Positions 1 through 53,115 of a stretch of 64,000 nt of DNA are shown piece by piece. How positions within the stretch are numbered: position 1 is the stretch's first letter; each line of letters opens with the position of its first letter. The DNA lies in assembly GCA_964035015.1 (NCBI GenBank), contig OZ036013.1, positions 11,562,676-11,626,675 of the forward strand, given 5' to 3'. Source of the DNA: Corallium rubrum. Taxonomy: Eukaryota; Cnidaria; Anthozoa; Scleralcyonacea; Coralliidae. Under the pieces are notes generated by a model, which saw only the letters and a list, made by a program, of their open reading frames with translations, did no database searches and had not been told where the DNA came from. Made by a program: the position numbers and the translations under genes.

Positions 1-2930
1 CATACATCGCTCTTTATAAAAACCTTGTCAGATAAAAAATATGACACCAATATATAATGTTGCTTTCAATCATTAAATTGTTAAGCCATCTCTCAAACCT
101 CATCAGATAAAAACACACATAAACATATTTCTTTCAATCATTGAGTTGTGACATTGCTTTTTAAAAACCCGATTACATAAAAAAATTCACACAGATATAT
201 GTTCATGCTTTCAATCGTTAAATTGTTATCTTTGCCTTTTAAAAACCCCCTGTAACACACATAAAAATATCACACAAACATATATGTTTCATTCAATCAT
301 TAAATTGTTAGCCATCTCTCAAACCCCTTCAGATAAAAACACACATAAACATGTTTCTTTCAATCATTGAGTTGTGATATTCCTTTTTAAAAACCCAATT
401 ACATAAAAAAACTCACACAGGTATATGTTCATCCTTTCAATCATTAAATTGTTATCCTTTGCCTTTTAAAAAACCCCTGTATCATTCAATCATTATACAG
501 TAAATTGCTACCTTGACTATTTTAAAAACCTGTCACACATAAAAAATCATTAAAATAACTGTTATCATTCACTCTAAATATATATATGTTTCTTTCAATC
601 ATTAAAATTCTTATCCTTTGCTCTTTAAAAACCATGTCATGTAAAAATATTGCATATATGTTTCTTTCAATCATTAATTAATTATCCTTCCCTCTTTAAA
701 AACCAGGTCACGTAAAAAATATTGCACAAATATATAATATGTTTCTTTCAATCATTAAATTATCCTTCCCTTTTTAAAAAGCATATCACATAAAAATATT
801 GCACAAATACATATGTTTCTTTCAATCATTAAATTATCCTTCCCTCTTTAAAAACCATGTCACATAAAAATATTGCACAAATACATATGTTTCTTTCAAT
901 CATTAAATTATCCTTCCCTCTTTAAAAACCATGTCACATAAAAAATATTGCACAAATATATACAATATGTTTCTTTCAATCATTAAATTATCCTTCCCTC
1001 TTTAAAAACCATGTCACATAAAAATATTGCACAAATATATACAGTAATATGTTTCTTTCAATCATTAAATTATCCTTCCCTCTTTAAAAACCATGTCACA
1101 TAAAAATATTGCACAAATACATATGTTTCTTTCAATCAGTAAATTATCCTTCCCTCTTTAAAAGCCATATCACATAAAAATATTGCACAAATATATAATA
1201 CGTTTCTTTCAATCATTAAATTATCCTTCCCTCTTTAAAAACCATGTCACATAAAAATATTGCACAAATATATACAGTAATATGTTTCTTTCAATCATTA
1301 AATTATCCTTCCCTCTTTAAAAACCATGTCACATAAAAATATTGCACAAATACATATGTTTCTTTCAATCAGTAAATTATCCTTCCCTCTTTAAAAGCCA
1401 TATCACATAAAAATATTGCACAAATATATAATACGTTTCTTTCAATCATTAAATTATCCTTCCCTCTTTAAAAACCATATCACATAAAAATATTGCACAA
1501 ATATATAATACGTTTCTTTCAATCATTAAATTATCCTTCCCTCTTTAAAAACCATGTCACATAAAAATATTGCACAAATACACATGTTTCTTTGAATCAT
1601 TAAATTATCCTTCCCTCTTTAAAAACCATATCACATAAAAATATTGCACAAATATATAATACGTTTCTTTCAATCATTAAATTATCCTTCCCTCTTTAAA
1701 AACCACATCACATAAAAATATTGCCCAAATATATACAATATGTTTCTTTCAATCATTAAATTATCCTTCCCTCTTTAAAAACCATGTCACATAAAAATAT
1801 TGCGCAAATACATATGTTTCTTTCAATCATTAAATTATCCTTCCTTCTTTAAAAACCATGTCACATACAAATATTGCACAAATATATACAGTAATATGTT
1901 TCTTTCAATCATTAAATTATCCTTCCCTCTTTAAAAACCATGTCACATAAAAATATTGCGCAAATACATATGTTTCTTTCAATCATTAAATTATCCTTCC
2001 CTCTTTAAAAACCATATCACATAAAAATATTGCACAAATATATAATATGTTTCTTTCAATCATTAAATTATCCTTCCCTCTTTAAAAACCATATCACATA
2101 AAAAATATTGCACAAATATATAATAGGTTTCTTTCAATCATTAAATTATCCTTCCCTCTTTAAAAACCATATCACATAAAAATATTGCACAAATATATAA
2201 TACGTTTCTTTCAATCATTAAATTATCCTTCCCTCTTTAAAAACCATGTCACATAAAAATATTCCACAAATACATAATACGTTTCTTTCAATCATTAAAT
2301 TATCCTTCCCTCTTTAAAAACCATGTCACATAAAAATATTGCACAAATATATATGTTTCTTTCAATCATTAAATTATCCTTCCCTCTTTAAAAACCATAT
2401 CACATAAAAAATATTGCACAAATATATAATATGTTTCTTTCAATCATTAAATTATCCTTCCCTCTTTAAAAACCATATCACATAAAAATATTGCACAAAT
2501 ATATAATACGTTTCTTTCAATCATTAAATTATCCTTCCCTCTTTAAAAACCATGTCACATAAAAATATTCCACAAATACATAATACGTTTCTTTCAATCA
2601 TTAAATTATCCTTCCCTCTTTAAAAACCATGTCACATAAAAATATTGCACAAATATATAATATGTTTCTTTCAATCATTAAATTATCCTTCCTTCTTTAA
2701 GAACCATGTCACATAAAAATATTGCACAAATATATACATTATGTTTCTTTCAATCATTAAATTATCCTTCCCTCTTTAAAAACCATGTCACATAAAAATA
2801 TTGCACAAATATATACATTATGTTTCTTTCAATCATTAAATTATCCTTCCCTCTTTAAAAACCATGTCACATAAAAATATTGCACAAATCTATAATTCAA
2901 TCACGCATTAAGTTATCATACATCATTCTT
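1..2930. repeat. AT-rich ~75 bp tandem satellite
   Basis: About 38 head-to-tail copies of a 70-80 bp unit. Each unit has a TTTCTTTCAATCATTAAATT block, a CCTTCCCTCTTTAAAAACCA block and a CACATAAAAATATTGCACAA block. Copies from about 600 to 2880 are nearly identical; the first 500 bases hold older, more diverged units. Unit length varies mainly at a short TATATAATATG-like linker. The array begins before the window. There is no long open frame, so this is a noncoding satellite. CRISPR was considered and dismissed, because the whole unit is conserved and there are no unique spacers. Confidence 0.95.
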
Positions 2931-3615
2931 TAAAAACCCTGTGACTGCCACATAAAAAGACATAGTAAATATACATGTATATCAAAATATGGTAAGTATA
3001 TTATTATATTAAATACAGTAATATAATAATAAATATCGTATGTACTGCCGTTAAAAAATTATATGGAACATAGAAGTCTAACATTTCAAGCAAGTCCATA
3101 TAACTAGTGGTATTCCTTTGAACCCAATTTCTTTGTCACCTGTTTTGCCCCAAAATGCAGTCCATAATTGGACATTTGGACCCATAACTTTCAAATGTTC
3201 TACTATATTTTAGCTCAGCAACCACCATGAACAATATAGAAAGCTAGCTACCAGTATTTGTAGTGGTGATTTTTTTCAATACAGAGGTGAAAATAGAGAT
3301 AGTAAAGAAAATAAGTCAGTGGCATGTGCCGCTAGTGATTAGCTTTGACTCATTCCCATACAGAAAGTACAGATCTTCATGCATTTTGCCCCAGCAGCCA
3401 CTGACAGAACACCACACCATCTATGTTTCTACCACAGGTGTCATCTTTTCTTTGCAGCGATTGGAGTAGAGATAGCAGATACAAGACCTCAGGTAGGAAG
3501 TTGTGTTGCTTTCTACAGAAGACATGAGATAAGCACCTGGGGTACCAGGTAATTTATAGGTAGTGGGTAATAAGGAACATGGTTCATTGCCCTCAAGAGA
3601 ACAATGATTACAGCT
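2931..3615. other. AT-rich unassigned DNA with an inverted fragment
   Basis: No convincing gene. Bases 3375-3480 carry, in reverse orientation, two stretches found again at 3715-3805: the CAGTGGCTGCTGGGG block and the CTGCAAAGAAAAGAACATG block. The small open frames here lack splice signals or recognisable domains. Confidence 0.5.
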
Positions 3616-3619
3616 AGGA

Positions 3620-3895
3620 CTAAGGATCAGTAAGGACAGGAAAAGGAACAGCAAACCCCAACTCTACTATAGAATGCAATTCAACTTAATATCCAAGATC
3701 TTTTTTCTACTATCTCAACTCCCATCACTGCAAAGAAAAGAACATGCCTGCAGTACAGAGATAGCCTTAATGTTCTGTCAGTGGCTGCTGGGGAAAAATG
3801 CAGAGTCAAACGTAACCAATTAGCCACACATCCTACCCAATGTGGTGACTTCATGGTCTCTTATCAAACACTACAATTCTTAACCACTTAGGCCC
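3620..3895 (+). repeat. Duplicated block, unoccupied copy of transposon target
   Basis: This block is closely repeated at 4046-4191 plus 6294-6440. Here the sequence runs uninterrupted through GTACAGAGATAGCCTTAATG. In the second copy the same site is split by the 2.1 kb element at 4192-6293. It therefore acts as a built-in empty site that fixes the transposon ends. The function of the block itself is not recognised. Confidence 0.85.
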
Positions 3896-4191
3896 AGGAA
3901 TCCCACAGGCAACATATGTTGCAGAAAAAACTATACTGTACTGGCAACAAGGCCGAACCACAAGTTGCATAATGCAAGGGGCCCATGACTAGTATATTAA
4001 TTACCTTTGAGCACAATTTTTCATCACCAGATTCTGGACCACCTGACCTAAGGATCAGTAAGGACAAGTAAAGGAATCACAAACCCCAATTCTACTATAG
4101 AAAGCAATTCAACTTAATATCCAAGATCTTTTTTCTACTATCTCAACTCCCATCGCTGCAAAGAAAAGAACATGCCTGCAGTACAGAGATA

Positions 4192-12814: not shown

Positions 12815-14588
12815 CGGTCCTACTAAACACCGTCCGGGACCGTCCGGGACCGTCCGGGACCGTCCGGGACCGTCCGGGACCGTCCGGGACCGTCCGGGAC
12901 CGCCCGTGACCGTCCGGGATGTCATTATGACCGTCCGTGATAAATATTAGTTAGTTTTATGTATTAAGCGATGTTAAATCAGCTTTTTAAATACTCTTCA
13001 ACAATATTAAATGTTCTATTCACTATTCTCAATGCACGATCTATTCACTATTCTCCGATTCACAATTAATGTTCGATCGATGCCGCAATGCTGCCGAAAG
13101 AGTGAATTTCGTTTCAGACCTGACAAATGAGTCGTCGTCTCAAAGAAAATTAAAAAATTTGGATGAGTTTATTTTGGCGAGAGAACATTCGGCAAATTGT
13201 CCCTACTTAACGATGTGCATGATCATCCATTCATCCAAGAGATTATCCAAACAAAAGGGAAACCCCCAGCTGTTATTCTGTACTTAAAGGAACAAATGGA
13301 TGAGATTAAGATGTTTTGTTCATCAGAAGCAACTCATCCTAGTGTATTGGGGGTGGATAGGACATTCAACCTCGGTCCATGTTATGTTACTATTCTTGTT
13401 TATCACCAAAATAATCTAATCCGAAAAGGCACACAGAACCATCCAATCATGCTAGGACCAGTATTTTTACATTGGGATGGACTATATCCTACATACCATG
13501 GCTTCTTTTCGCATTTAAGAAGCCAAATGGATGACTGCATTAACGGCATTCAGGTTAGTGGTCGTAATCTACTAATTGGATCTGACGAGGAAAAAGCTCT
13601 CACAAAAGCAATGAAACAATCATTTCCATCGTCACATCACATTCTCTGTCGTCATCACATAGAAGAGAATGTGAAACGTCATCTTCGTGGAAAGGTTGGA
13701 GCAAACGATAGACAGACTAAAGAAGTAATCAATGATATTTTTGGAGACAATGGACTCTTAGCTGTTGATGATGAATATGAGTATGCATTGGAAAGTTTCG
13801 AGCTACAAGAGAAGTACTGTAGCAGTATGCCAAATTTCCTTCCGTACTTCAATAAACTACTAACAACGTTGTTAGAATTTGTGTTCCTTCCAAGCCAGAA
13901 AAATAAATCCATTCCCATTAACTGGAAAAACAATTCATGTGAAAGCATGAATCACATCTTGAAATTTTCGTGTGACTGGAAAGTCCACAAAATTCCGGAT
14001 TTAGTGGAAAAAATTTGCAAGATCGTACAACTTCAGTACGCAGATGTTAGGCGTTCTCTTTATGGGATGGGAAATTATGTTGTCGCTCCTTGGATGGCAA
14101 AGTTTAAACTTAGCCAAGCTAACTGGGCTGCCAAATCACAAGAAGAAAAAGAAACTTTGTTTCAGAAGTTTTTGAAAGGTGCGCCCAAAGCGGAGAAAAC
14201 TGTCAAGTCAGCAGATGGAAGGCTAACCATACCAAAAACTCAAAAAACAGCAAGAAAACCTGGTCAGCGAAAGAGAGTGAAATGTGCTAGAACTCAAAAA
14301 CGTTAGGGCATTAATCAGTCTAATCAATTAAGGACAATAAATATGTTACAAAAGAAACGGGAGTTGTATATTTTTTTAACATTTCATTTCTCGAGTTTTT
14401 TTTAAATTGAAAAACCAATTGACGAATGTAATCAAGGTAAGTTATAAGTACATTAATGATTCTCTTGATCATAGAGGATTAAATTAATGGCACGGACCAG
14501 TCCCGGACGGTTCACGGACGGTCCCGGACGGTTCACGGACGGTTCCGGACGGGTCCCGGACGGTCCCGGACGGTGTTTAGTAGGACCC
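12815..14588 (+). mobile_element. Mutator-like (MULE) DNA transposon
   Basis: Terminal inverted repeats of at least 36 bp: GGTCCTACTAAACACCGTCC at the left, its complement at the right, each continuing into tandem CGTCCGGGAC decamers. An 8 bp duplication ATCAGTTA flanks it (12807-12814 and 14589-14596). Inside is a transposase frame (13197-14306) preceded by a short out-of-phase frame. MULEs usually give 8-11 bp duplications, so size and protein agree. The decamer array in both ends could serve as repeated transposase binding sites. Confidence 0.85.
13069..14306 (+). CDS. MULE-type transposase, probably frameshifted
   Basis: Main open frame 13197-14306 (369 residues from a TTG codon; the frame is open from 13167). 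It shows a MULE-style catalytic layout: D54 in VLGVDRTFNLGPCYVT, D130 in LIGSDEEKAL followed by the LCRHHIEENVKRHL Cys/His motif, and E249 in NNSCESMNHILK. The C-terminus is very basic (PGQRKRVKCARTQKR), suggesting nuclear targeting or DNA contact. The frame 13069-13190, containing NLDEFILAREHSANC, appears to be the N-terminal continuation in another phase, so a frameshift near 13195 separates them. Unlike most frames here, the catalytic part has no stop. N-terminal zinc-binding domains common in MULEs are absent, so it may be truncated. Confidence 0.8.
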
Positions 14589-19164: not shown

Positions 19165-19908
19165 TTATAAGCTAAAAATTGTGTTAACATGATGAACTTG
19201 GATATTAAGATCAGGCTTATATTTATTAATGTATAAGGCTTCTTTATGTCTAAGTGAAAACAAAGATTTAGCGGAGTCTAAAATTTTGAAACATGATTGA
19301 GAGTATTTGTTCTTACAGGAGGATGATTTCTGTAGGTGCTTAAGGATGTGTGAGTTTTTATCTGTCGAAGTGTGTTCTTTTATCCTTGTAGTAAGGTGAC
19401 GAGTAGTTTCGCCAATATAACGGGAGTTACATCCCGCACAAGTAAATTGGTAAACTACAAAGGACTTGAGATCACTAGGAATAGGATCCTTAAAACAGAA
19501 AAGGTTTTTTATTTTGTATGATGAGAAGACAAGTTTGATTTGTATGTCTGTGCAGAACCGTTTGATAAGACCTTTTAATTTTTGTTCCGTAATTTTTGAA
19601 TAGAAACCAATATAGGGAAGTTTGAAATAGCGAGTATTTTGTTTATCTGCTGGCGGATCTGAAACCGTAGTAGAAATAGGTGCGTTTGAGTTGGTGTCAT
19701 AGTATTTGTTGATGGTTTGATTAATTATGTGAAGTGGGAAAGAATTGCGTTGAAGTGTAAAAGCGAGTTCATTTAAATCATTTTGAAAACCTATAGCGGT
19801 ATTGTTGATTTTTCGAGCCCTGTCAATGAGAGTTCTTATTAAACCGGTTTTATAAGAAAGAGGAGAAAAACTGAGGAAACTCGTGAGTAGGCCTGTGTAA
19901 GATGGCAT
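19165..19908 (-). CDS. GIY-YIG endonuclease end of a Penelope-like polyprotein
   Basis: A 247-codon frame without internal stops. Residues 1-75 look like the region after the reverse transcriptase (TGLIRTLIDRARKINN). The GIY-YIG nuclease spans about 151-180: VVYQFTCAGC, then SRYIGETTRHLTTRIKEH, with the catalytic-type Tyr, Arg and His context of the family. A Cys pair before the YIG strand (CAGC) is typical of Penelope-like endonucleases. Such nucleases nick DNA to prime reverse transcription. The first Met lies inside the inverted arm, so the true N-terminus is lost. Confidence 0.9.
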   Translation of the reverse strand: MPSYTGLLTSFLSFSPLSYKTGLIRTLIDRARKINNTAIGFQNDLNELAFTLQRNSFPLHIINQTINKYYDTNSNAPISTTVSDPPADKQNTRYFKLPYIGFYSKITEQKLKGLIKRFCTDIQIKLVFSSYKIKNLFCFKDPIPSDLKSFVVYQFTCAGCNSRYIGETTRHLTTRIKEHTSTDKNSHILKHLQKSSSCKNKYSQSCFKILDSAKSLFSLRHKEALYINKYKPDLNIQVHHVNTIFSL

Positions 19909-19925
19909 AAGTTTGCCGAAACATG
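19893..19925 (+). ncRNA. Degenerate hammerhead-like motif, opposite arm
   Basis: The plus strand repeats the GATGGCATAAGTTTGCCGAA segment of 18933-18962 in inverted position. The CUGANGA box is altered (CTGTGTAAGA), so it is probably inactive. Confidence 0.35.
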
Positions 19926-20498
19926 TTTACATTAAAAAAGTTTGTCGTTTACTTGAAGTTTATAGTAACTTTAGTGCTATTAAGAACATATGGAATTACA
20001 ACTTAATGGAAACGCTTGTTGTAATCCAATCGGCGACAGTCGGCGACTGTTGTAGAAGTTGAATCAGGTTCAACTTCTACAACAATTACAACAGTCGCCG
20101 ATGCGACAACAGTTAATGGAAACATCAATACTCGACAGTCGGCGACTTTTTGCTAGATGTTTGCAACGTAAAACACAAAATTATTTACAAAAACCGGCCA
20201 AATCCTTTCAAAAAACCCTCGATTTTGTTAAAGAAGTCTACTAAATTAATGACTATAGTTCGAAGACTTAAATGCCGCACGCCAGCTCAAATGTTTGCAA
20301 CTGTCGTCAAACCTTCACGAAACATGAGATTTAAGCGGCGAAGTTACTGAACTTGTAAATAATGTAATATAAACTGTGAAAATGATCACAAACAAAGTTT
20401 TAGTCACATTCAATTTGTTTTTGAATATCAAACTTAGCTCATCTGAGCGAATCGGCGATTTGAATTACAACAATTACAACTATATGGAAACCTGGCTT

Positions 20499-31131: not shown

Positions 31132-34100
31132 AAGAACATTAATCTATCTCTGAGGAAAAGACTAGTGAAAACATTGGTATGGTACGGAGGCTTGTAGGTA
31201 TCATGACATTTTTTTTTACTTTAGCGACTTTTTTTTTTGGGATTAGCGACTTTTTTTTTGGATTAGCGACTTTTTTTTTTTGGATTAGCGACATTTTTTT
31301 TTGGGATTAGCGACTTTTTTTTTTGGATTAGCGACTTTTTTTTTTTGGATTAGCAACTTTTTTTTGGATTCGAAAGTTTCATTGAAATTGCACCAAGTAT
31401 TCGAATTCACGTAATTCAATCGATCATTCATGATCAGGCGATAGTGGATGAAAACCACTATATCTCCAAGCACTCGGCTTCCAGCTAAACCCGCGGGGAA
31501 AGGAGGGACACGCTCGCAGTCTATAGCGCTCCGAGCTCTCACTCCAAGCTTTCGCTCCAAGCTCTCGCCTTCGAACTCTAACCTTCCGAGCGCCTGGCTT
31601 ATGGCTCAGAGTCGACAGCAAGTCGCGGAGGGCTCGTAGCCGAGAACTTGGGAGCCAAGAACTTGGAGGCGACAGGTCGTTGGCGAGAGCTACATACATA
31701 GGGAACAACATCATGGAGGAAAGAGCGCGTAGCTGGGAGCAGGGAGCTGAGAGAACGGAGGTGGGAGATCGGAGCCGAGCTCTCGCTTCTCGCCTCCGAG
31801 TTCCCGATTGGCTCGAAGCTCTCTGCTCCAACTTCTCGACGCCCAGCTCTCGCCTCCCAGTTCTCAGCTCCGAACCCTCTGCTAAGTGCTCTCAACTGCC
31901 AGCCATGGACCGAAAGTGAGGGCTTAGCGGGTAGAGCTCGGAGGCGAGAGCAAAGAGCTCGGAGCATCGAAGGGGAGAACTCAACCTCTCGCCTCCGTGC
32001 TTCCGGCTCCGAGTTCTGTCCTCCGGGTTCTCGTCTTCCAAGCTCTCATCTTATGGCGTCAGAGTCGACAGGAAGTCGCGGGCAAAAATTTTTTTGGGAT
32101 CACTTCCCGTGGGACTTCCGGGTTGGGTTGGGGGGGAGTTTTACGGGGAAGCCTATGATCAGTATTTTTGTGGGGGTCTGGTACAAAGTGATCCTAAAAT
32201 AAATCTCTGCAGTCGCAGAGGGCCGAGAGCCGCGTTGATCGTAGAGAGTTCGGAAACAACACCATTGTGGCGAGAACGCGGAGCTGGGAGCACAGAGCCG
32301 AGAGAACGGAGGCGAGAGTTAGAGCCGAGCTCTCGGATCCGGGCTCTTCGCTCTCGCTTCCAAGCTATCCCCACCAAGCTCCCGCATCCGTGCTCTAGCC
32401 TCTCAGCCCATGGCTAGGATTCGAGAGCACGCAGCGGCGAGCTTGGAGCCAAGAACTTATGAGGGGTCGTTGGCGAGAACTAAGTAGGAAGCAACACCAC
32501 GGCAGGAGAGTGGGCGGAGCTGAGAGCTCGGAGCCGAGTGCTCGGAGCAGAGAGCCCGGAGTCGAGAGCGCGGAGCCGAGAGCACGGACCAGAACTTGCC
32601 TCCGAACTCTCCCCTCAAAGTTCTCGCCTCCGTGCTTTCGGCCCGTGGCTCGCAATCGAGAACGTAGCGGAGGGCTGGAAGCCGAGAACGGGGATGCAAG
32701 AGCTCGGAGGCGAGAGCTGGGGCCCGAGAACTTCGAGCCGAGAAATCCGAGCCGAGTAGTCGGAGGCAAGAAGCAAGAGCTCGGCTTCGCGCTCTCGACT
32801 AGGGGAGAAGCGAGAGCTCGGCTTCATTTGTGCTTTCGGCTGCGCGCTCTCTGCTCCGAACTCTCGCCATCTGAGCTCTCGGCTCATGGCTCTGGGTCGA
32901 CAGCAAGTGGCGGAGGACTCGGAACGGAAGACGTGGAGCCAAGAACTTGCAGGAGAGGGGTTGTTGGCGAGAGCTGGGAAACAACACCATGGAGGACAGA
33001 GCGCGGAGCTGATAGCTCGTAGCCGAGAGCACGGAGGTGAGAGGTCGGAGTTAAGCTCGCACTTTTCGCCTCTGAGTTCTCTGCTGGAAGCTCTCCGCTT
33101 CCCAGTTATCGACTCTGAGCCCGCCGCTGCGTGCTCTCGAATCCTAGTCATGGGCAGAGGCTAGAGCACGGAGGCGGGAGCTTGGCGGGGATAGCTTGGA
33201 AGCGAGAGCGAAGAGCCCGGATCCGAGAGCTCGGCTTCTAACTCTCGCCTCCGTTCTCTCGGCTCTGTGCTCCCAGCTCCGCGTTCTCGCCACAATGGTG
33301 TTGTGGACTGGGTCGACAGCAAGTGGCGGAGGACTCGGAACGGCTCCCGGCCCTCTGCGACTGCAGAGATTTATTTTAGGATCACTTTGTACCAGACCCG
33401 ACAAAAATACTGATCATAGGCTTCCCCGTAAAATTTCCCCCAACCCAACCCGGAAGTCCCACGGGAAGTGATCCCCAAAAAATTTTTGCCGCGACTTCCT
33501 GTCGACTCTGACGCCATAAGACGAGAGCTTGGAAGACGAGAACCCGGAAGGCAGAACTCGGAGCCGGAAGCACGGATGCGAGAGGTTGAGTTCTCCCCTT
33601 CGATGCCCCGAGCTCTTTGCTCTCGCCTCCGAGCTCTACCCGCTAAGCCCTCACTTTCGGTCCATGGCTGGCAGTTGAGAGCACTTAGCAGAGGGTTCGG
33701 AGCTGAGAACTGGGAGGCGAGAGCTGGGCGTCGAGAAGTTGGAGCAGAGAGCTTCGAGCCAATCGGGAACTCGGAGGCGAGAAGCGAGAGCTCGGCTCCG
33801 ATCTCTCACCTCCGTTCTCTCAGCTCCCTGCTCCCAGCTACGCGCTCTTTCCTCCATGATGTTGTTCCCTATGTATGTAGCTCTCGCCAACGACCTGTCG
33901 CCTCCAAGTTCTTGGCTCCCAAGTTCTCGGCTCCGAGCCCTCCGCGACTTGCTGTCGACTCTGAGCCATAAGCCAGGCGCTCGGAAGGCGAGAGTTCGAA
34001 GGCGAGAGCTTGGAGCGAAAGCTTGGAGTGAGAGCTCGGAGCGCTATAGACTGCGAGCGTGTCCCCCCTTTCCCCGCGGGTTTAGCTGGAAGCCGAGTGC

Positions 34101-34640
34101 TTGGAGATATAGTGGTTTTCATCCACTATCGCCTGATCATGAATGATCGATTGAATTACGTGAATTCGAATACTTGGTGCAATTTCAATGAAACTTTCGA
34201 ATCCAAAAAAAAGTCGCTAATCCAAAAAAAAAGTCGCTAATCCAAAAAAAAAAGTCGCTAATCCAAAAAAAAAGTCGCTAAAGTAAAAAAAAATGTCATG
34301 ATACCTACAAGCCTCCGTAGTATGGAGCGTGACTTTACCTCCGCTATGCCTACAATTAAGTCCCTCTGTCATCCATCTTATTGATTGATTTTGTATTTTA
34401 GGTTCTTATATATTACTTTTATATTTAAATCATTTATTAGTTTGTTTTTTTCCTCCTTTTTCTTTGTTTTGATATATATCATATGAACTATATTATAATA
34501 TATAATTTTAGTTATGTACCTGTAAACCTCCTAGTATAGTGTAATAACACTGATTTAGGAGTATTTCATTAAAGCATTAAGGCAGTGAAACATGGACCTT
34601 GAGAAAAGATGAATCACGCAGATTGGAAGCCTTTGAATGT
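31132..34640 (+). pseudogene. RTE-like LINE reverse-transcriptase tail, split in three
   Basis: The frame reads KNINLSLRKRLVKTLVW up to 31182, is broken by the foldback element 31183-34319, and resumes at 34320 with VWSVTL (V-W repeated in the 6 bp duplication). It is broken again by a 244 bp LINE-3'-end-like insert (34337-34580) and continues GSETWTLRKDESRRLEAFE at 34581-34637. Put in order these match the LRKRLVKTLVWSVxLYGxETWTLRK region of RTE/BovB-type reverse transcriptases. Confidence 0.75.
31183..34319. mobile_element. 3.1 kb foldback element, 6 bp target duplication
   Basis: Arms of more than 1.1 kb are nearly identical inverted copies (31183-32420 against 33125-34319). They begin TACGGAGGCTTGTAGGTATC and contain a terminal array of TTTTTTTTTGGATTAGCGAC units (about eight on the left, four on the right). 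The interior is dominated by short GAGCTCGGAGCCGAGAGC-type words in both orientations. GTATGG flanks both ends (31177-31182 and 34320-34325). Mirror-image open frames (31599-31967 minus, 33468-33971 plus) come from the repeat words and are not genes. No transposase is present. Confidence 0.9.
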
Positions 34641-38160: not shown

Positions 38161-38717
38161 GCAACACTTAGCCATGTGGTCTTAGCGCAGAAATACCGAA
38201 CTCCGAAGTACACGACATTTTCAGTTCACACGCCCACGTAACGAACTGTCAAAAGTCAAAATTGATGGTGCGATACACTGCTAAAATTGTGATTTAAGAC
38301 CCTTATATTTTGCTCAATAGTGCCCTCAAAATGTGGAAAATGCCGTTTCAGAGACCCAAAATTCAAAAATTTTCCGGGGGACCCCCCTAGAATACTCGGG
38401 CTTCGCTCTCGTCCCCCCCCCCAACTTCCAGCATTGTCGCCCTTGGTACTAGATCTAATATTTGGATAAAATGTCGCTCCGATAAAAGGCATGATATGCC
38501 AGATATTTAACTTACTGGTACTGTATTGTGGACCTTCAAAACATACAGGACCATTTTGTTAAAATTTCTCTTTTTTTGTAAATTATTTGTTAACGGATTT
38601 GGATTTCTTTTTCTGAACCGGAACAAGCCTGTAATCCTCAGCAAGTGACAGCGCTGACGAAGCCCGGAACTTCGAGCACTCCCATAGAATCGTTCCCTTG
38701 CTACCCAATGAAGCAGC
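38161..38717. other. Unassigned DNA with a dispersed repeat fragment
   Basis: Bases 38330-38430 (TGCCGTTTCAGAGACCCAAA, TTTTCCGGGGGACCCCCCTA) belong to the family of 9625-9700 and 43955-44095. A TACCCAATGAAGCAG stretch just before 38718 resembles the YPM lead-in of caspases in another frame. Confidence 0.5.
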
Positions 38718-39098
38718 TTGCTTGGATACGCCGTAATTGTTAATATACAAAACTTTTCCGGAAAAACGCAGGAAGGTCGGGTTTTAAAACCGAGAAATGG
38801 AAAAGTGGATTCAGAAAATCTGGAGGAATTGTGGCGAAAGTTAGGTTTTGTTGTTCAAACTCATAATTCAGACTTGAAAGCACACCAGCTTTTGACAGTT
38901 CTACAAACTATCGCCGAAAAAATTGACAACAATACCAGTTGTTTTGTCTGTTGCGTCCTATCCCATGGACGATTTGGAGAAATTTATTGTGGAGACTCCA
39001 AGACTGTTCAAATTAGTAGAATAACCTCCTTTTTCAAGGAAGACAGCTGCAGGACGTTGGGTGGAAACCCAAGCTTTTTTCAACCTTTAACAACTTAA
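38718..39098 (+). pseudogene. Truncated caspase p20 domain without catalytic cysteine
   Basis: A 126-codon frame: GYAVIVNIQNFSGKTQEGR, DSENLEELWRKLGFVVQTHN, then SCFVCCVLSHGRFGEIYCGD with the catalytic His at residue 83 (SHG). It ends FKEDSCRTLGGNPSFFQ. Family members continue into a QACRG-type box with the nucleophilic Cys; here the frame departs after NPSFFQ and stops (PLTT). The p10 subunit is absent. The start ATG is only the first Met of the track; upstream caspase-like codons are out of frame. No stop interrupts the p20 part, so a catalytically dead fragment could in principle be expressed, but no promoter or exon context supports that. Confidence 0.85.
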
Positions 39099-46714: not shown

Positions 46715-46899
46715 GTGGTAGCAACGTTGGGTGCAGGTAATGAGTTAGTACAGTGCTTGGAGGCTGAGAACCAGGGCTCTCAGCTTGGTGGTCGGATCAG
46801 GAACAACGCTAGCCATTTCCCTGATCCTGCTCCAAGCACGGATGACTCAACGCTAAACAGAATCCAATATTCACACCTGCTACCCAACCATCCATACGG
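46715..46899 (+). CDS. Candidate exon, duplicated at 52930-53028
   Basis: The open frame ends GGRIRNNASHFPDPAPSTDD, STLNRIQYSHLLPNHPYG at a consensus donor (ACGG-GTAAGTAT, GT at 46900). The copy at 52930-53028 keeps the frame, with a 6 base in-frame deletion and the same donor, which suggests past coding selection. The protein is not recognised. Confidence 0.4.
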
Positions 46900-46985
46900 G
46901 TAAGTATATATTGTAACGAGACTGGTCGTTCCCGGAGACTAATACGGAGTGTGTTGGAAACAATCGACGTAGGTTTTAAATGAGG
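46785..46985 (+). repeat. 200 bp direct repeat, left copy
   Basis: Nearly identical to 52917-53115, from GGTGGTCGGATCAGGAACAA to CAATCGACGTAGGTTTTAA. The two copies bracket 5.9 kb containing the Ginger element, a hAT element and a MITE. Confidence 0.92.
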
Positions 46986-47117
46986 TTATGAAATAACCAA
47001 GGTTAAAACACAGGAGAGCGCAAGGTTAAGTGTTGGCAGCTAATTGGTCTAATTATACACAGCTTATATGGACACTGTTGACGAGTTGCTAGAAAGAATG
47101 CGCATTACGTTACTTAA

Positions 47118-47266
47118 GCCAGTTTTCCACTAGGCGACTTCTTTCGCGCGAAGCGACTTTTTCTTTTGTCTCATGAGCTCTGAGCTGGGACTAATCAGAA
47201 ATCTATTGAATTCGAACAAAAGAAAGTCGCTTCGCGCGAAAAAAATCGCCTAGTGGAAAACCGGCT
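47118..47266. mobile_element. 149 bp MITE beside the Ginger element
   Basis: The ends pair GCCAGTTTTCCACTAGGCGA with its complement, and inner arms GCGCGAAGCGACTTT with AAAGTCGCTTCGCGC. TTAA lies on each side (47114-47117 and 47267-47270). Noncoding. Confidence 0.85.
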
Positions 47267-47479
47267 TTAATCCTTTATTACTTGTGCTAGTGTCATGGTC
47301 TCAATACTCCCCTGGTCTCAACGTTCCCCTATTAGTATGCGCATGCGCGCGGAAGCGGTGTTGCATGTCAACAAATCTCGTGGTCTCAGTTCTCCCCTCG
47401 CTTCTGTCGCTGTTCGAACAATTTTCTTCACTTGCAAACACACTCGATACTATTTCAATTTTACTCAAAAGTCTTCAGT

Positions 47480-47753
47480 ATGGCGACACAACAAGAGCCT
47501 AGCGCAGAACCTGCTGTCGTAGCTGAATCTGAGCGTAAAACGAGAAGCGATCGCATGGCTCAACACAACGAAAAATGCGAGCGTATCGTGCATTATTTAC
47601 GCCATGGTAAACATCTAGATGGTTTGACCAAAAATCAACAGCGAACTGTTCGTGGCCAAGCTAAGAATTATATTCTGGATGAGACAAGTAATTTCCCGGC
47701 ATTTCCCCTCTGTCTCTGGTATATTTCTCATGGTTTCACATACATATAAATAA

Positions 47754-47808
<55 letters not shown>

Positions 47809-50008
47809 CATGTTCATAACAATTTATCATGATTTTTAGATAACGAGTTGTATTATACGAGTGGAAAGGAGATCGTCCGAAAAAAGGTTGTCCTTACTGT
47901 TCAAGAAACCAAGGAAATTTTGCATCACCATCACAGCGACGCAATGGGAGGACACAGTGGTGTCAATAACACATTGTTCAAAGTTTCCAGTTTCTATCAT
48001 TGGAATGGAATGAAAGAAGACATTCAGGAATATGTGAGTTGATTATTACAATAAAATACTTTATTCAAATGTCTTGTTATACCTTGCGGTTACCATAATT
48101 TCAGTTTATTCTGTGCGTTAAAAACATTTGTTGTTGGCTAGGGACATGCCTGTAGAAAGTAGGAAGCCATGGAGCGACGCTACCTCCAAAGTCTAAGGCT
48201 ACATGCCAACAAGTATGTGTTTTGCTTTTAATAGGCCAACCAAACAATCTGAATTCAAAACAACTTTCTGGTTTAATTTAATTAATTTTACTATATATCT
48301 TGCTTTAGGTTCTTAAGAACATAGACATCGCCCAGCAGAAACAGAAAAAACAATATGAAAAAAGAAAGGCAAAGGGTGTGAAAACATTTGTTATAAAGGT
48401 TGGGGATACTGTTTTCAAAAAACAAATGAAAAATGAGTCAAGAAAGGGTGGAAAGATGGAGCCTACTTGGATAGGACCATACAGGTACATAATTTGGCAA
48501 CTGTGCCATTGTAAAGAGTTACTTAACGTCGAAGACTCTGTGTTGGACAGGGTGAATACTAAAGTAGTGTGCATGGGGGCACATTGCACATAAAGAGTTA
48601 GCAGGACACAGTCACACTGTTAACTCATTAACATCAAAGACTCCTCCCATTGCAATATGCCCCCAGTTTATTGTTTCAGTGGGTTAGGATTTTTATCTTG
48701 TGGTTTTAATATATCCTTAATTATATAATACTGGTTATGTTATTACCTCATTCTTTTAGAGTGACAGAAATTGACAAAATGCAAAGGGCAACCCTTATTT
48801 CCTTGAAGGATGGTGCTGTGCCATTGAAAAAAAAAGTCCCTTATGACCAACTGCGACCCTATACAAGCGAACTGCATGACAGCATCTCATCACCAGCAGA
48901 TGACAGCACCTCACCACCAGCCAATGACAGCACCTCACCACCACCCAGTGATAGCACCTCACCACCAGCCAATGACAGCACCTCACCACCACCCAGTGAT
49001 AGCACCTCACCACCAGCCAATGACAGCACCTCACCACCACCCAGTGATAGCACCTCACCACCAGCCAATGACAGCAACTCACCACCACCAAGTGATAGCA
49101 CCTCACCACCACCCAGTGACAGCACCTCACCAGCACCCAGTGATAGCACCTCACCACCAGCCAATGACAACACCTCACCACCACCTGATGAAAACACTCT
49201 GCCACCACCATCCAACAAAATCACCAAAAACACACAAAAAAGAAGACCCAAACAAGTTTTGCGTTCGTGTCCAAATCCGAAGACTGGCAAATTGGTGTCA
49301 ACAACTCTGCAAGCAGACTACTTGCTGACAGATGAACACATCGATCATGGCCAGTGGTTGACCTCAAAAAAGTTTCCAGGTGCAACAGGTTTGCACTCCG
49401 TGTTAGCCTTTGAAAGCAAAACGCCAAAGGTAGAGAAGAAAGAAGACTTTGTGCAAGTTATTAACATGGGTGGAAATCACTGGGTGACAGTTACCAACAT
49501 TGGTTGTGAAAGCAACAGAATTAAAGTTTATGACTCTCTTAACTATCTCTGTGCCAAACTCCCAGAGAGTGATAGACAGAAGTTCCACACCTCATTAGCA
49601 GCATTGCTCAACACAAGCTTGGCAGCCATGGTGATCGAGTGGCCATCAATGGTACAGCAAAAAGGCTGTTCTGATTGTGAACTTTTTTCCCTAGCAGTTA
49701 TTGTCAGCCTTTGTAATGGTGATGACCCTGGGCTTCAAGTATATGACCAAAGTGTCATGAGAATACATTTATCTCTTTGTATTCAGTGTGAAGAGATTAC
49801 TACATTTCCAGTTACGTCATCAAGATGTGTTGTGGGACTTGGTGATGAAGAAACTGTAGACCTATTCTGCCATTGCAGAATGCCATATAGTGATGGTGTT
49901 TTTATGATTGAGTGCTCAAAATGTTTCAGTTGGTTCCATCGATCGTGTGAGAAGGTTCCAAGAACTGTCACAAGCAAAACAAATTTTTATTGTAAAAATT
50001 GTAAATAA
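47480..50008 (+). CDS. Core-less Ginger transposase with Ulp1 protease and PHD finger
   Basis: Exons 47480-47687, 47840-48033, 48309-48484 and 48760-50008 have GT-AG borders and join in phase (1, 0, 2) to 609 codons including the stop. In order: an N-terminal region (MATQQEPSAEPAVVAESERK); an integrase H2C2-like part (ILHHHHSDAMGGHSGVNNTL, FYHWNGMKEDIQEY); then directly the integrase tail (IDIAQQKQKKQYEKRKAKG, GGKMEPTWIGPYRVTEI, a GPY motif); a Pro/Ser/Thr repeat; a Ulp1/SENP-like protease with His (GGNHWVTVTNIG, codon 49478), Asp (KVYDSL, 49532) and Cys (QQKGCSDCELFSLA, 49676); and a C-terminal PHD finger (CHCRMP...CSKCFSWFHRSC...CKNC). The rve/DDE core that should sit between exons 2 and 3 has only 275 bp of intron to occupy and is absent. 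A possible extra exon at 48105 (LCVKNICCW) ends in a stop. Spliced as predicted, the protein could bind and process but not transpose. Confidence 0.75.
48885..49190 (+). repeat. Coding VNTR in the Ginger gene
   Basis: About twelve 24 bp units alternate between PANDSTSP and PPSDSTSP octapeptides. It links the integrase tail to the Ulp1-like domain as a flexible Ser/Thr/Pro linker. Confidence 0.95.
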
Positions 50009-50337
50009 ATATAATTTGTAAATACTTGATGTGCATATTACTGCTTGAACAGGCGAACCGAGGCCACGTATGCTTACAAACTAAATCAGTATTTCCAGTT
50101 AATTTTTCGCTTTTAACAAAAAATGAAAAGATTGACAGATCCTGTACCCTCATCTTAATTTGCTGCAAGTCTAAGAACTGTCAAAGATGATCAGTTAGTA
50201 CGAATTTAGAAATGTATTAACTTTGTGTAAGTGGCCTCGGTTCGCCAGTTTTAGCAGTAAAATGTGTAAACTATAAAATTGTAAATAAAATTAATAGGAA
50301 AATAATCTCAATGCACCTTACTTCATTACTATAACAT
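50009..50337. other. 3' flank of the Ginger gene
   Basis: AT-rich. AATAAA-like ATAAATATAATTTG follows the stop closely, and GTAAATAAAATTAATAGG occurs at about 50280. Two GGCGAACCGAGGCCAC-type words (50053 and, in inverted sense, 50233) are imperfect inverted repeats. Confidence 0.4.
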
Positions 50338-51750
50338 TCAGACCAGTCTTGATACTCTCCAGTCTGAGTTATCTCTTTTAAAAATTATAACAGGAGATAC
50401 CCCAGACTGGGGAGTATTCAGACCAGTCTCAATACTCCCCAGTCTGAGACAGAGTTATCTCATTTAAAAAATTATAACAGGAGATACCCCAGACTGGGGA
50501 GTATTCAGACCAGTCTTGATACTCCCCCAGTCTGAGTTATCTCATTTAAAAAATTATAACAGGAGATACCCCAGACTGGGGAGTATTCAGGCCAGTCTTG
50601 ATACTCTCCAGTCTGAGTTATCTCTTTTAAAAATTATAACAGGAGATACCCCAGACTGGGGAGTATTCAGACCAGTCTCGATACTCCCCAGTCTGAGTTA
50701 TCTCTTTTAAAAAATTATAACAGGAGATACCCCAGCCGGGGAGTATTCAGGCCAGTCTCGATACTCCCGTAGTCCTGAGTTTCTCAAATCTGACGTCAGT
50801 GGACACATGCACACATTGTGTGTCTATTTTTATGTTAAGCAAACGAATGACTATAGCCTTGTAAATAATATAGACCGTCATTTTTTGTAGTTCATGAATC
50901 TCAAACAGTACAAGTATGCAAACTGCATGGTCACCTACGTGGAACCCTTCTGCCCCAAACAAAAGCCACAAAGAAACAAGTTCAGTCTGAGTTATCTCAT
51001 TTAAAAAATTATAACAGGAGATACCCCAGACTGGGGAGTATTCAGACCAGTCTCGATACTCCCCAGTCTGAGACAGAGTTATCTCATTTAAAAAATTATA
51101 ACAGGAGATACCCCAGACTGGGGAGTATTCAGACCAGTCTTGATACTCCCCCAGTCTGAGTTATCTCATTTAAAAAATTATAACAGGAGATACCCCAGAC
51201 TGGGGAGTATTCAGGCCAGTCTCGATACTCCCCAGTCTGAGTTATCTCTTTTAAAAATTATAACAGGAGATACCCCAGACTGGGGAGTATTCAGGCCAGT
51301 CTCGATACTCCCGTAGTCCTGAGTTTCTCAAATCTGACGTCAGTGGACACATGCACACATTGTGTGTCTATTTTTATGTTAAGCAAACGAATGACTATAG
51401 CCTTGTAAATAATATAGACCGTCATTTTTTGTAGTTCATGAATCTCAAACAGTACAAGTATGCAAACTGCATGGTCACCTACGTGGAACCCTTCTGCTCC
51501 AAACAAAAGCCACAAAGAAACAAGTTCAGTCTGAGTTATCTCATTTAAAAAATTATAACAGGAGATACCCCAGCTGGGGAGTATTCAGACCAGTCTTGAT
51601 ACTCCCCAGTCTGAGTTATCTCTTTTAAAAATTATAACAGGAGATACCCCAGCTGGGGAGTATTCAGACCAGTCTCGATACTCTCCAGTCTGAGTTATCC
51701 CTTAAAAATTATAACAGGAGATACCCCAGACTTAGTCTGAGTTATCTCTT
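50338..51750. repeat. Array of TIR-like motifs inside the Ginger element
   Basis: About 11 units of roughly 85 bp share GTATTCAGACCAGTCTCGAT, ACTCCCCAGTCTGAGTTATC, TAAAAAATTATAACAGGAGA and TACCCCAGACTGGGGA. A longer 544 bp period repeats a 250 bp spacer (50740-50990 and 51284-51534), nearly identical. The GTCTCGATACTCCCCAGTCT core resembles the left terminus of the element (GGTCTCAATACTCCCCTGGT) and the right subterminal AACTCAGACTGGGGGA. Confidence 0.9.
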
Positions 51751-52043
51751 TTAAAAAATATACAAAAGTGATCATATTTATAAAGAAACAATACGATATT
51801 TAACGGCCTTACCATATCTAACAATAATGTGCCTTCACAAGAATACTTTTAAAGTCTTTTTTTTTGTAAATAAGCAAAGATAAAAAGCAAAATATAAACG
51901 GGGATAACTCAGACTGGGGGAGCGTTCAGGCCAGCTAGCTACGTGCTCAGTGTTCCGCTGTTTTCGCGCATGCGCAGATAATCAAAAGGGATAACTCAGA
52001 CTGGGGGAATGCTGAGACCGTGACACTAGCACAGACGTTAGAC

Positions 52044-52916: not shown

Positions 52917-53115
52917 GTGGTGGTGGTCGGATCAGGAACAACGCTAGCCATTTCCCTGATCCTGCTCCAAGCACGGATGACTCAAACAGAATCCAATATT
53001 CACACCTGCTACCCAACCATCCATACGGGTAAGTATATATTGTAACGAGACTGGTCGTTCCAGGAGACTAATACGGAGTGTGTTGGAAACAATCGACGTA
53101 GGTTTTAATTGTCAA
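52917..53115 (+). repeat. 200 bp direct repeat, right copy
   Basis: Matches 46785-46985, including the candidate exon end and GTAAGTAT donor (GT at 53029), with a 6 base deletion. Confidence 0.92.

Follow-up and report, generated by a model that had tools for sequence, protein, structure and literature searches.

Ginger1 transposons carry an intron-containing gene for an integrase-type protein with an H2C2 zinc finger, a DDE catalytic core and a GPY motif, and the elements end in TGTNR, possess inverted repeats of about 40-270 bp, and duplicate a 4-bp target of CCGG or CCGT/ACGG upon insertion (PMC2836005). The C-terminus of the protein bears an OTU or a Ulp1 domain, sometimes together with a PHD finger, and a YPYY motif lies upstream of the zinc finger (PMC2836005); the combination of Ulp1 with PHD is known from Ginger1-9_HM (Bao et al. 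2010, PMC2836005). Vertebrate Gin-1 and Gin-2 are derived from Ginger1 (PMC2836005), as is the host gene Imagin, which has lost the DDE triad and, in its amphipod form, the whole core (PMC12863088). Furthermore, KP-like internal-deletion derivatives of the P element may repress transposition (PMC12393704). In the titles and abstract openings of the papers listed, we found no core-less Ginger1 copy described as a repressor.

The window examined here, a stretch of 64,000 nucleotides, holds a gene of this kind from which the catalytic core is missing. We consider it very probable that this gene is a recent, non-autonomous internal-deletion derivative of a Ginger1 element of the Ulp1 and PHD type. 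The reading is carried by the borders of the element, its target duplication, a close copy that bears the core, the position of the breakpoint, the phases of the exons and the domains that have been lost, all of which can be followed in the DNA itself.

The element, its gene and the predicted protein

The element occupies positions 47291..52025 on the forward strand (4,735 bp; termini TGTCAYGGTCTCA) and is bordered by identical CTAG quartets, the left target site duplication lying at 47287..47290 and the right at 52026..52029. Both ends read TGTCA and together form an imperfect inverted repeat of about 60 bp, in an alignment that also includes the 4-bp target duplication. Subterminal repeats of about 80-87 bp, akin to the terminal sequence, are found on the 3' side at 50336..51750. 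The flanks (TGTG-CTAG on the left, CTAG-CACA on the right) make up a palindromic target around CTAG, a quartet that is not among the Ginger1 targets given in PMC2836005. Two direct copies of a 194-bp repeat (96% identity) flank the element at 46786-46979 and 52921-53108, and a foldback with two 50-nt arms (90%) sits just upstream at 47116-47267. Elsewhere in the window we observe a GC-rich inverted repeat at 31338-34232 (756-nt arms, 98% complementary, 1,383 nt apart), a MULE transposase fragment (13167-14303), a GIY-YIG domain (19168-19926) and a caspase domain (38712-39095).

The gene comprises four predicted exons, which like all features of the gene given below lie on the forward strand. 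Exon 1 (47480..47687, donor CAA/GTAATT) covers the part upstream of the zinc finger with the YPYY-like region; exon 2 (47840..48033) encodes the His-His half of the H2C2 finger and ends in phase 0; exon 3 (48309..48484, acceptor CTTTAG/GTT, phase 0) encodes the part after the core, as far as the GPY motif (WIGPY); and exon 4 (48760..50008) supplies the end of the GPY tail, a Pro/Ser repeat, the Ulp1-like domain, the PHD finger and the stop. The structure put forward in the original prediction, that of four GT-AG exons with compatible phases and some 608 residues, is borne out, as GT-AG borders are present at all three introns, the exon ends have phases 1, 0 and 2, and the joined exons give an open 1,827 nt for 608 residues and a stop. 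Two of 32 splice combinations, a set that included the one originally predicted, remain open to the final stop, and in the second of these the exon-3 acceptor lies 9 nt further in (605 residues). Mononucleotide shuffling of the coding sequence, repeated 20,000 times, never gave an open frame, which argues that the gene is a real coding remnant.

Within the predicted protein, the Pfam model Integrase_H2C2 scores 45.2 bits (cut-off 25.5) over model positions 4-47 of 59 only. Only half of the finger is present, the CxxC half having been encoded by the first lost exon; when exon 2 of the window is joined, for the search, to the first core exon of a further copy in this genome, located on contig C28 and described below, the score becomes 67.2 bits over positions 4-56. 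The expectation of an H2C2 region running directly into a GPY-type tail thus holds for the presence of the finger but not for its integrity, since it is cut and the CxxC half is gone. SH3_Tf2-1 is matched with 12.3 bits, under its cut-off of 30, and residues 48-137 resemble the Ty3 polyprotein (7q5b, E 7.2e-05). In the YPYY-like region, compared by eye, the aromatics of NYI and LYY are presumably the counterparts of the motif, with His-Leu in place of the Tyr-Pro pair. No rve domain was found by the Pfam scan of the 608-residue protein, and the 275 bp between exons 2 and 3, where the core had been predicted to be absent, contain stops in each of the three forward frames, such that a core exon concealed in this interval is ruled out and the absence is confirmed.

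A Pro/Ser-rich tandem repeat linker (48876..49215, defined by DNA self matches) is followed by the Ulp1-like (C48) domain at 49235..49810, with the His codon at 49478, the Asp codon at 49532 and the Cys codon at 49676. Peptidase_C48 reaches 13 bits in the whole protein, under its cut-off of 20.7; scanned apart, the Ulp1 domains score 20.8 bits in L049, 15.5 in the window and 15 in L054 (L-numbers denote other loci of the same genome). A family profile matches the Ulp1-like SUMO protease structure 6dg4 (E 0.0096). The catalytic Cys is followed by Glu in the window and by Gly in all six other fetched loci that cover this position (L022, L049, L050, L051, L054 and L055, of which L050 and L051 are one duplicated stretch). 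As such, the protease that had been predicted is visible in its His, Asp and Cys, but it is sub-threshold in Pfam and has a Glu after the Cys. The PHD finger (49817..50005) is confirmed at 25.1 bits against a cut-off of 24 and by PDB entry 3kqi (E 1e-09); its best solved relatives are PHF2 and PHF8, the PHD fingers of which read H3K4me3. A single-sequence structure prediction of the Ulp1-PHD exon gave a mean pLDDT of 34.8, which is too poor for use.

A core-bearing copy on C28 and the probable deletion

A DNA search with window positions 47833-48490 returned 10 matches, the closest among those listed being the copy on C28, which is about 99% identical to the window on either side of a junction at 48196..48197 and keeps the core. 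At this junction the window is without 1,538 bp that contain the CxxC half and the DDE core (oriented positions 2579-4116 of the C28 copy), with the left match ending at 48196 and the right match starting at 48197. On the left the break falls in an intron; on the right it lies within the last core exon, of which the final 16 nt are retained. The missing stretch contains CHQC and the first Asp (GIDLIG), a middle exon, LLSDQG with the second Asp, LDERTNQ with the Glu, and most of a short last exon, for a loss of about 220 residues when summed over the predicted exons. By comparison with the C28 copy, the interval between exons 2 and 3 (48034..48308) is a composite intron, in which the 5' part of the old intron is followed by 16 nt of the last core exon (48197-48212), the donor of that exon (48213 GTATGT) and the old following intron. 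Further aligned pieces of the two copies are 98.8%, 99.0% and 99.2% identical, the value across the Pro/Ser repeat being 96.8% with 23 gap positions, and intron 1 is longer in C28 by about 0.46 kb. The C28 copy has the same termini (TGTCA) and a CCGG duplication on both sides. Its own damage consists of a frame change within the core, a Tyr for the Ulp1 His, and the absence of both the Cys half of Ulp1 and the PHD finger.

The very recent deletion that the original prediction had named as one possibility is therefore supported by a copy of about 99% identity that retains the core and by a breakpoint that can be placed to the base. The search of the genome for related loci with the core, proposed at the same time, yielded both the C28 copy and an rve domain in the joined exon pieces of L054; a situation in which close copies all carry independent stops fits poorly, the only close copy having the core along with defects of other kinds. 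Among the 10 matches, this exact deletion was found in at least one locus, namely the window. A 5-bp microhomology at the breakpoint, suggested by overlapping matches, was reduced on reading to 1 bp plus an imperfect 5-bp match. A genome search with rve as a route to the parent, in which 150 of 2,916 candidates were scored, was uninformative, the best matches lying mostly in long retroelement-like open frames; the parent copy was located by DNA searches with the window exons.

The frame remains open across the deletion without selection because both facing exon ends are in phase 0, exon 2 ending and exon 3 beginning there. The GT donor after exon 2 occurs at the same point in all six other fetched copies that have this exon. 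The exon-3 acceptor AG was followed in five other copies; it is in place in L019, L054 and L055, lost in L049, and one base along from our cut point in L022. A deletion inside such a phase-0 block, with the outer splice sites surviving, leaves a predicted open frame, and an open frame can be a product of gene structure, with no new function required.

On this reading the course of events was as follows. The full gene comprises N-terminal exons, four predicted core exons (one with CxxC and the first Asp, a middle one, one with the second Asp and the Glu, and a short end exon), a GPY exon and a Ulp1-PHD exon. One deletion removed everything from the interior of the intron on the exon-2 side through to the last core exon, sparing only the final 16 nt of the latter, perhaps by faulty gap repair after excision. 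Splicing of phase-0 exon 2 to phase-0 exon 3 across the shortened interval would keep the frame and give a 608-residue protein without the parts for cutting and joining DNA. Given that the termini are intact, the element might be mobilised in trans if a relative were to supply the transposase.

Related copies and short elements

In three of the 11 other fetched loci (L049, L054 and L055) the family pieces are matched in their proper order, exon 2 through PHD, the remaining eight having partial sets (L019, L022, L024, L050, L051, L052, L053 and L056). The joined exon pieces of L054 score 63.9 bits for H2C2 and 53.6 bits for rve, such that the diagnostic Ginger1 domains H2C2 and rve are present at the level of the family, the window having only half the finger and the GPY motif. 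In L049 a stop interrupts exon 2, and the core end piece was not found; L055 has Asn at the second Asp, and its exon 1 was not found. L050 and L051, one stretch duplicated with 99.7% identity over 7.7 kb, have a core exon fused with Ulp1 such that the frame is not kept and, judged by this arrangement, are an independent loss of the core; an inverted pair within them was ruled out as a short element, as it sits inside the larger copy. L024 and L053 are separated by about 28 kb and could be fragments of a single element. An undamaged copy of the exact subfamily of the window was not found among the fetched loci, which counts against the internal-deletion reading. The Ulp1-PHD tail has 57 matches in the genome, for example at C28:6859622, C8:14875329, C13:4313189 and C15:13351448, and four with 34% identity to it, situated in open frames of 857-1005 residues, may belong to other transposon families.

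With regard to the termini, a genome search with the last 266 bases of the element (40 of 197 candidates scored) gave 47 listed matches, all of which stop on the terminal base, and 37 of these share at most the terminal 60 bases. Eighteen of the 37 pair up on opposite strands, giving nine pairs whose outer ends lie about 0.4-2.3 kb from each other, arranged as short elements would be, and 19 are single. Four short elements that we read (L067-L070) are about 510-710 bp in length, foldback-like by eye and equipped with these termini, three of them with CCGG on both sides; the copies that share only the terminal 60 bp look like a mobile population of short elements. A genome search with the leftmost 270 bases found only the window and C28 (two of two candidates). 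Likewise, a terminal pair with equal flanking quartets was seen in two of 12 family sequences scanned, again the window and C28, full borders thus being established for these two. The quartet after the right end, examined at 10 end loci, is CCGG in six (L058, L059, L061, L063, L064 and L066), CTGG in three (L060, L062 and L065) and CTAG in the window. This CTAG duplication, in place of the CCGG or CCGT of Ginger1, also counts against the internal-deletion reading.

Alternative roles and comparison with known systems

The window and C28 copies differ at 12 of 1,963 compared nucleotides (about 0.6%, or 0.31% per lineage), comprising 7 of 951 coding positions (3 silent, 4 not; the count omits a codon bordering the Pro/Ser repeat, and is 9 nucleotides if that codon is included) and 5 of 1,012 noncoding positions, and the coding sequence is thus not more conserved than the noncoding in this comparison. 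Exon 1 has a single silent difference. Of the four replacements, two lie on the C28 side, a Lys in exon 2 where L049, L054, L055 and L056 have Glu, and the Tyr for the Ulp1 His; the other two can be assigned to neither side. Outside repeats, the compared coding exons contain no indels, as opposed to three gap runs in noncoding sequence.

In simulations that scored every indel as fatal and let decay run from the split to the present, the frame survived in 78% of cases with substitutions only, and in 33%, 19% and 2% at 0.15, 0.25 and 0.6 indels per substitution, of which 0.25 is the overall ratio (3 gap runs to 12 substitutions) and 0.6 the noncoding ratio (3 to 5). With the deletion placed at any time since the split, the corresponding values are 89%, 61%, 48% and 27%. 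Survival at the noncoding rate (2%, or 27% with a free deletion date) counts against plain decay; as the values span 78% to 2% depending upon the indel rate, the openness of the frame is weak evidence either way, and with only 12 differences selection since the deletion is unmeasurable in either direction. The comparison of dN/dS between copies, which had been recommended, gave 0.05-0.34 in 17 of 28 segment pairs of the family (10 of 28 were saturated and without a value), but 0.49, from three changes, for the exon-2 pair of window and C28. The retained domains are under purifying selection in older relatives, as is expected of a working transposase, and this is accordingly uninformative on the core-less copy.

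Selection for another role, the second possibility in the original prediction, is not supported by these data, considering that the coding differences are not below the noncoding ones, that a Glu lies beside the catalytic Cys, and that one locus with the deletion was found. A role as a KP-type repressor of transposition appears improbable to us. A protein in which N-terminal region, GPY tail and PHD finger are all retained could join transposase complexes or block sites, and the P-element KP offers a precedent (PMC12393704). The open frame, the good splice sites, the lack of coding indels relative to C28 outside repeats, the purifying selection on the retained domains within the family and a right terminus common to dozens of short elements are all compatible with such a role; the zinc finger is broken, however, the deletion is found at one locus (a lower bound), selection after the deletion is not measurable, and the substitution at the protease Cys would also have to be accommodated. 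Skipping of the core in full copies would give the same core-less Ulp1-PHD protein, and the window copy could on this basis be a hard-wired genomic version of a naturally occurring isoform with a restraining, regulatory effect on the family; we regard this as quite unlikely, and nothing favours it over plain decay. Domestication as a host gene, whether a SUMO-pathway protease or a chromatin reader, is very unlikely: Ulp1 and PHD are uninterrupted and DDE-deficient host genes such as Imagin have arisen from Ginger1 before (PMC12863088), but the inverted termini and target duplication are still in place, divergence since the C28 split is only about 0.3% per lineage, and a substitution has occurred next to the catalytic Cys. 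A two-part system, with the core from copies like C28 and Ulp1-PHD from copies like that of the window, is favoured by the complementary losses in the two closest copies but appears extremely improbable to us, in that the frame shifts within the core of C28, a Tyr replaces the His of its Ulp1, each of the two types was found a single time, and both parts occur in one gene order in L049, L054 and L055.

The internal-deletion reading has a more general implication, namely that an intron-divided transposon gene can lose its catalytic domain and yet resemble an intact gene, and that gene predictors and readers may be misled into regarding these copies as domesticated genes. A simple ground for caution in this respect is the phase-0 block in which the core lies, and this block also suggests a testable idea, that of a natural core-less isoform.

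Relative to described systems, the window copy is like Ginger1-9_HM in its integrase-like gene with introns, its GPY tail and its C-terminal Ulp1 and PHD, and like Ginger1 at large in its TGTNR termini and 4-bp target duplication, its relatives in the same genome having mostly CCGG; it is unlike Ginger1 in being without the CxxC half and the DDE core, and in its duplication of CTAG. With the P-element KP it shares an internal deletion that leaves a shorter protein, potentially interfering with the transposase, although repressors of the KP type keep their DNA-binding domain, whereas the zinc finger of the window copy is broken and repression by it is only hypothetical. Imagin is similar in its derivation from Ginger1 and in the loss of its DDE triad (of the entire core in amphipods); it is, however, a host gene with no inverted repeats and a history of long-term selection, whereas the element in the window is a young copy with its ends in place.
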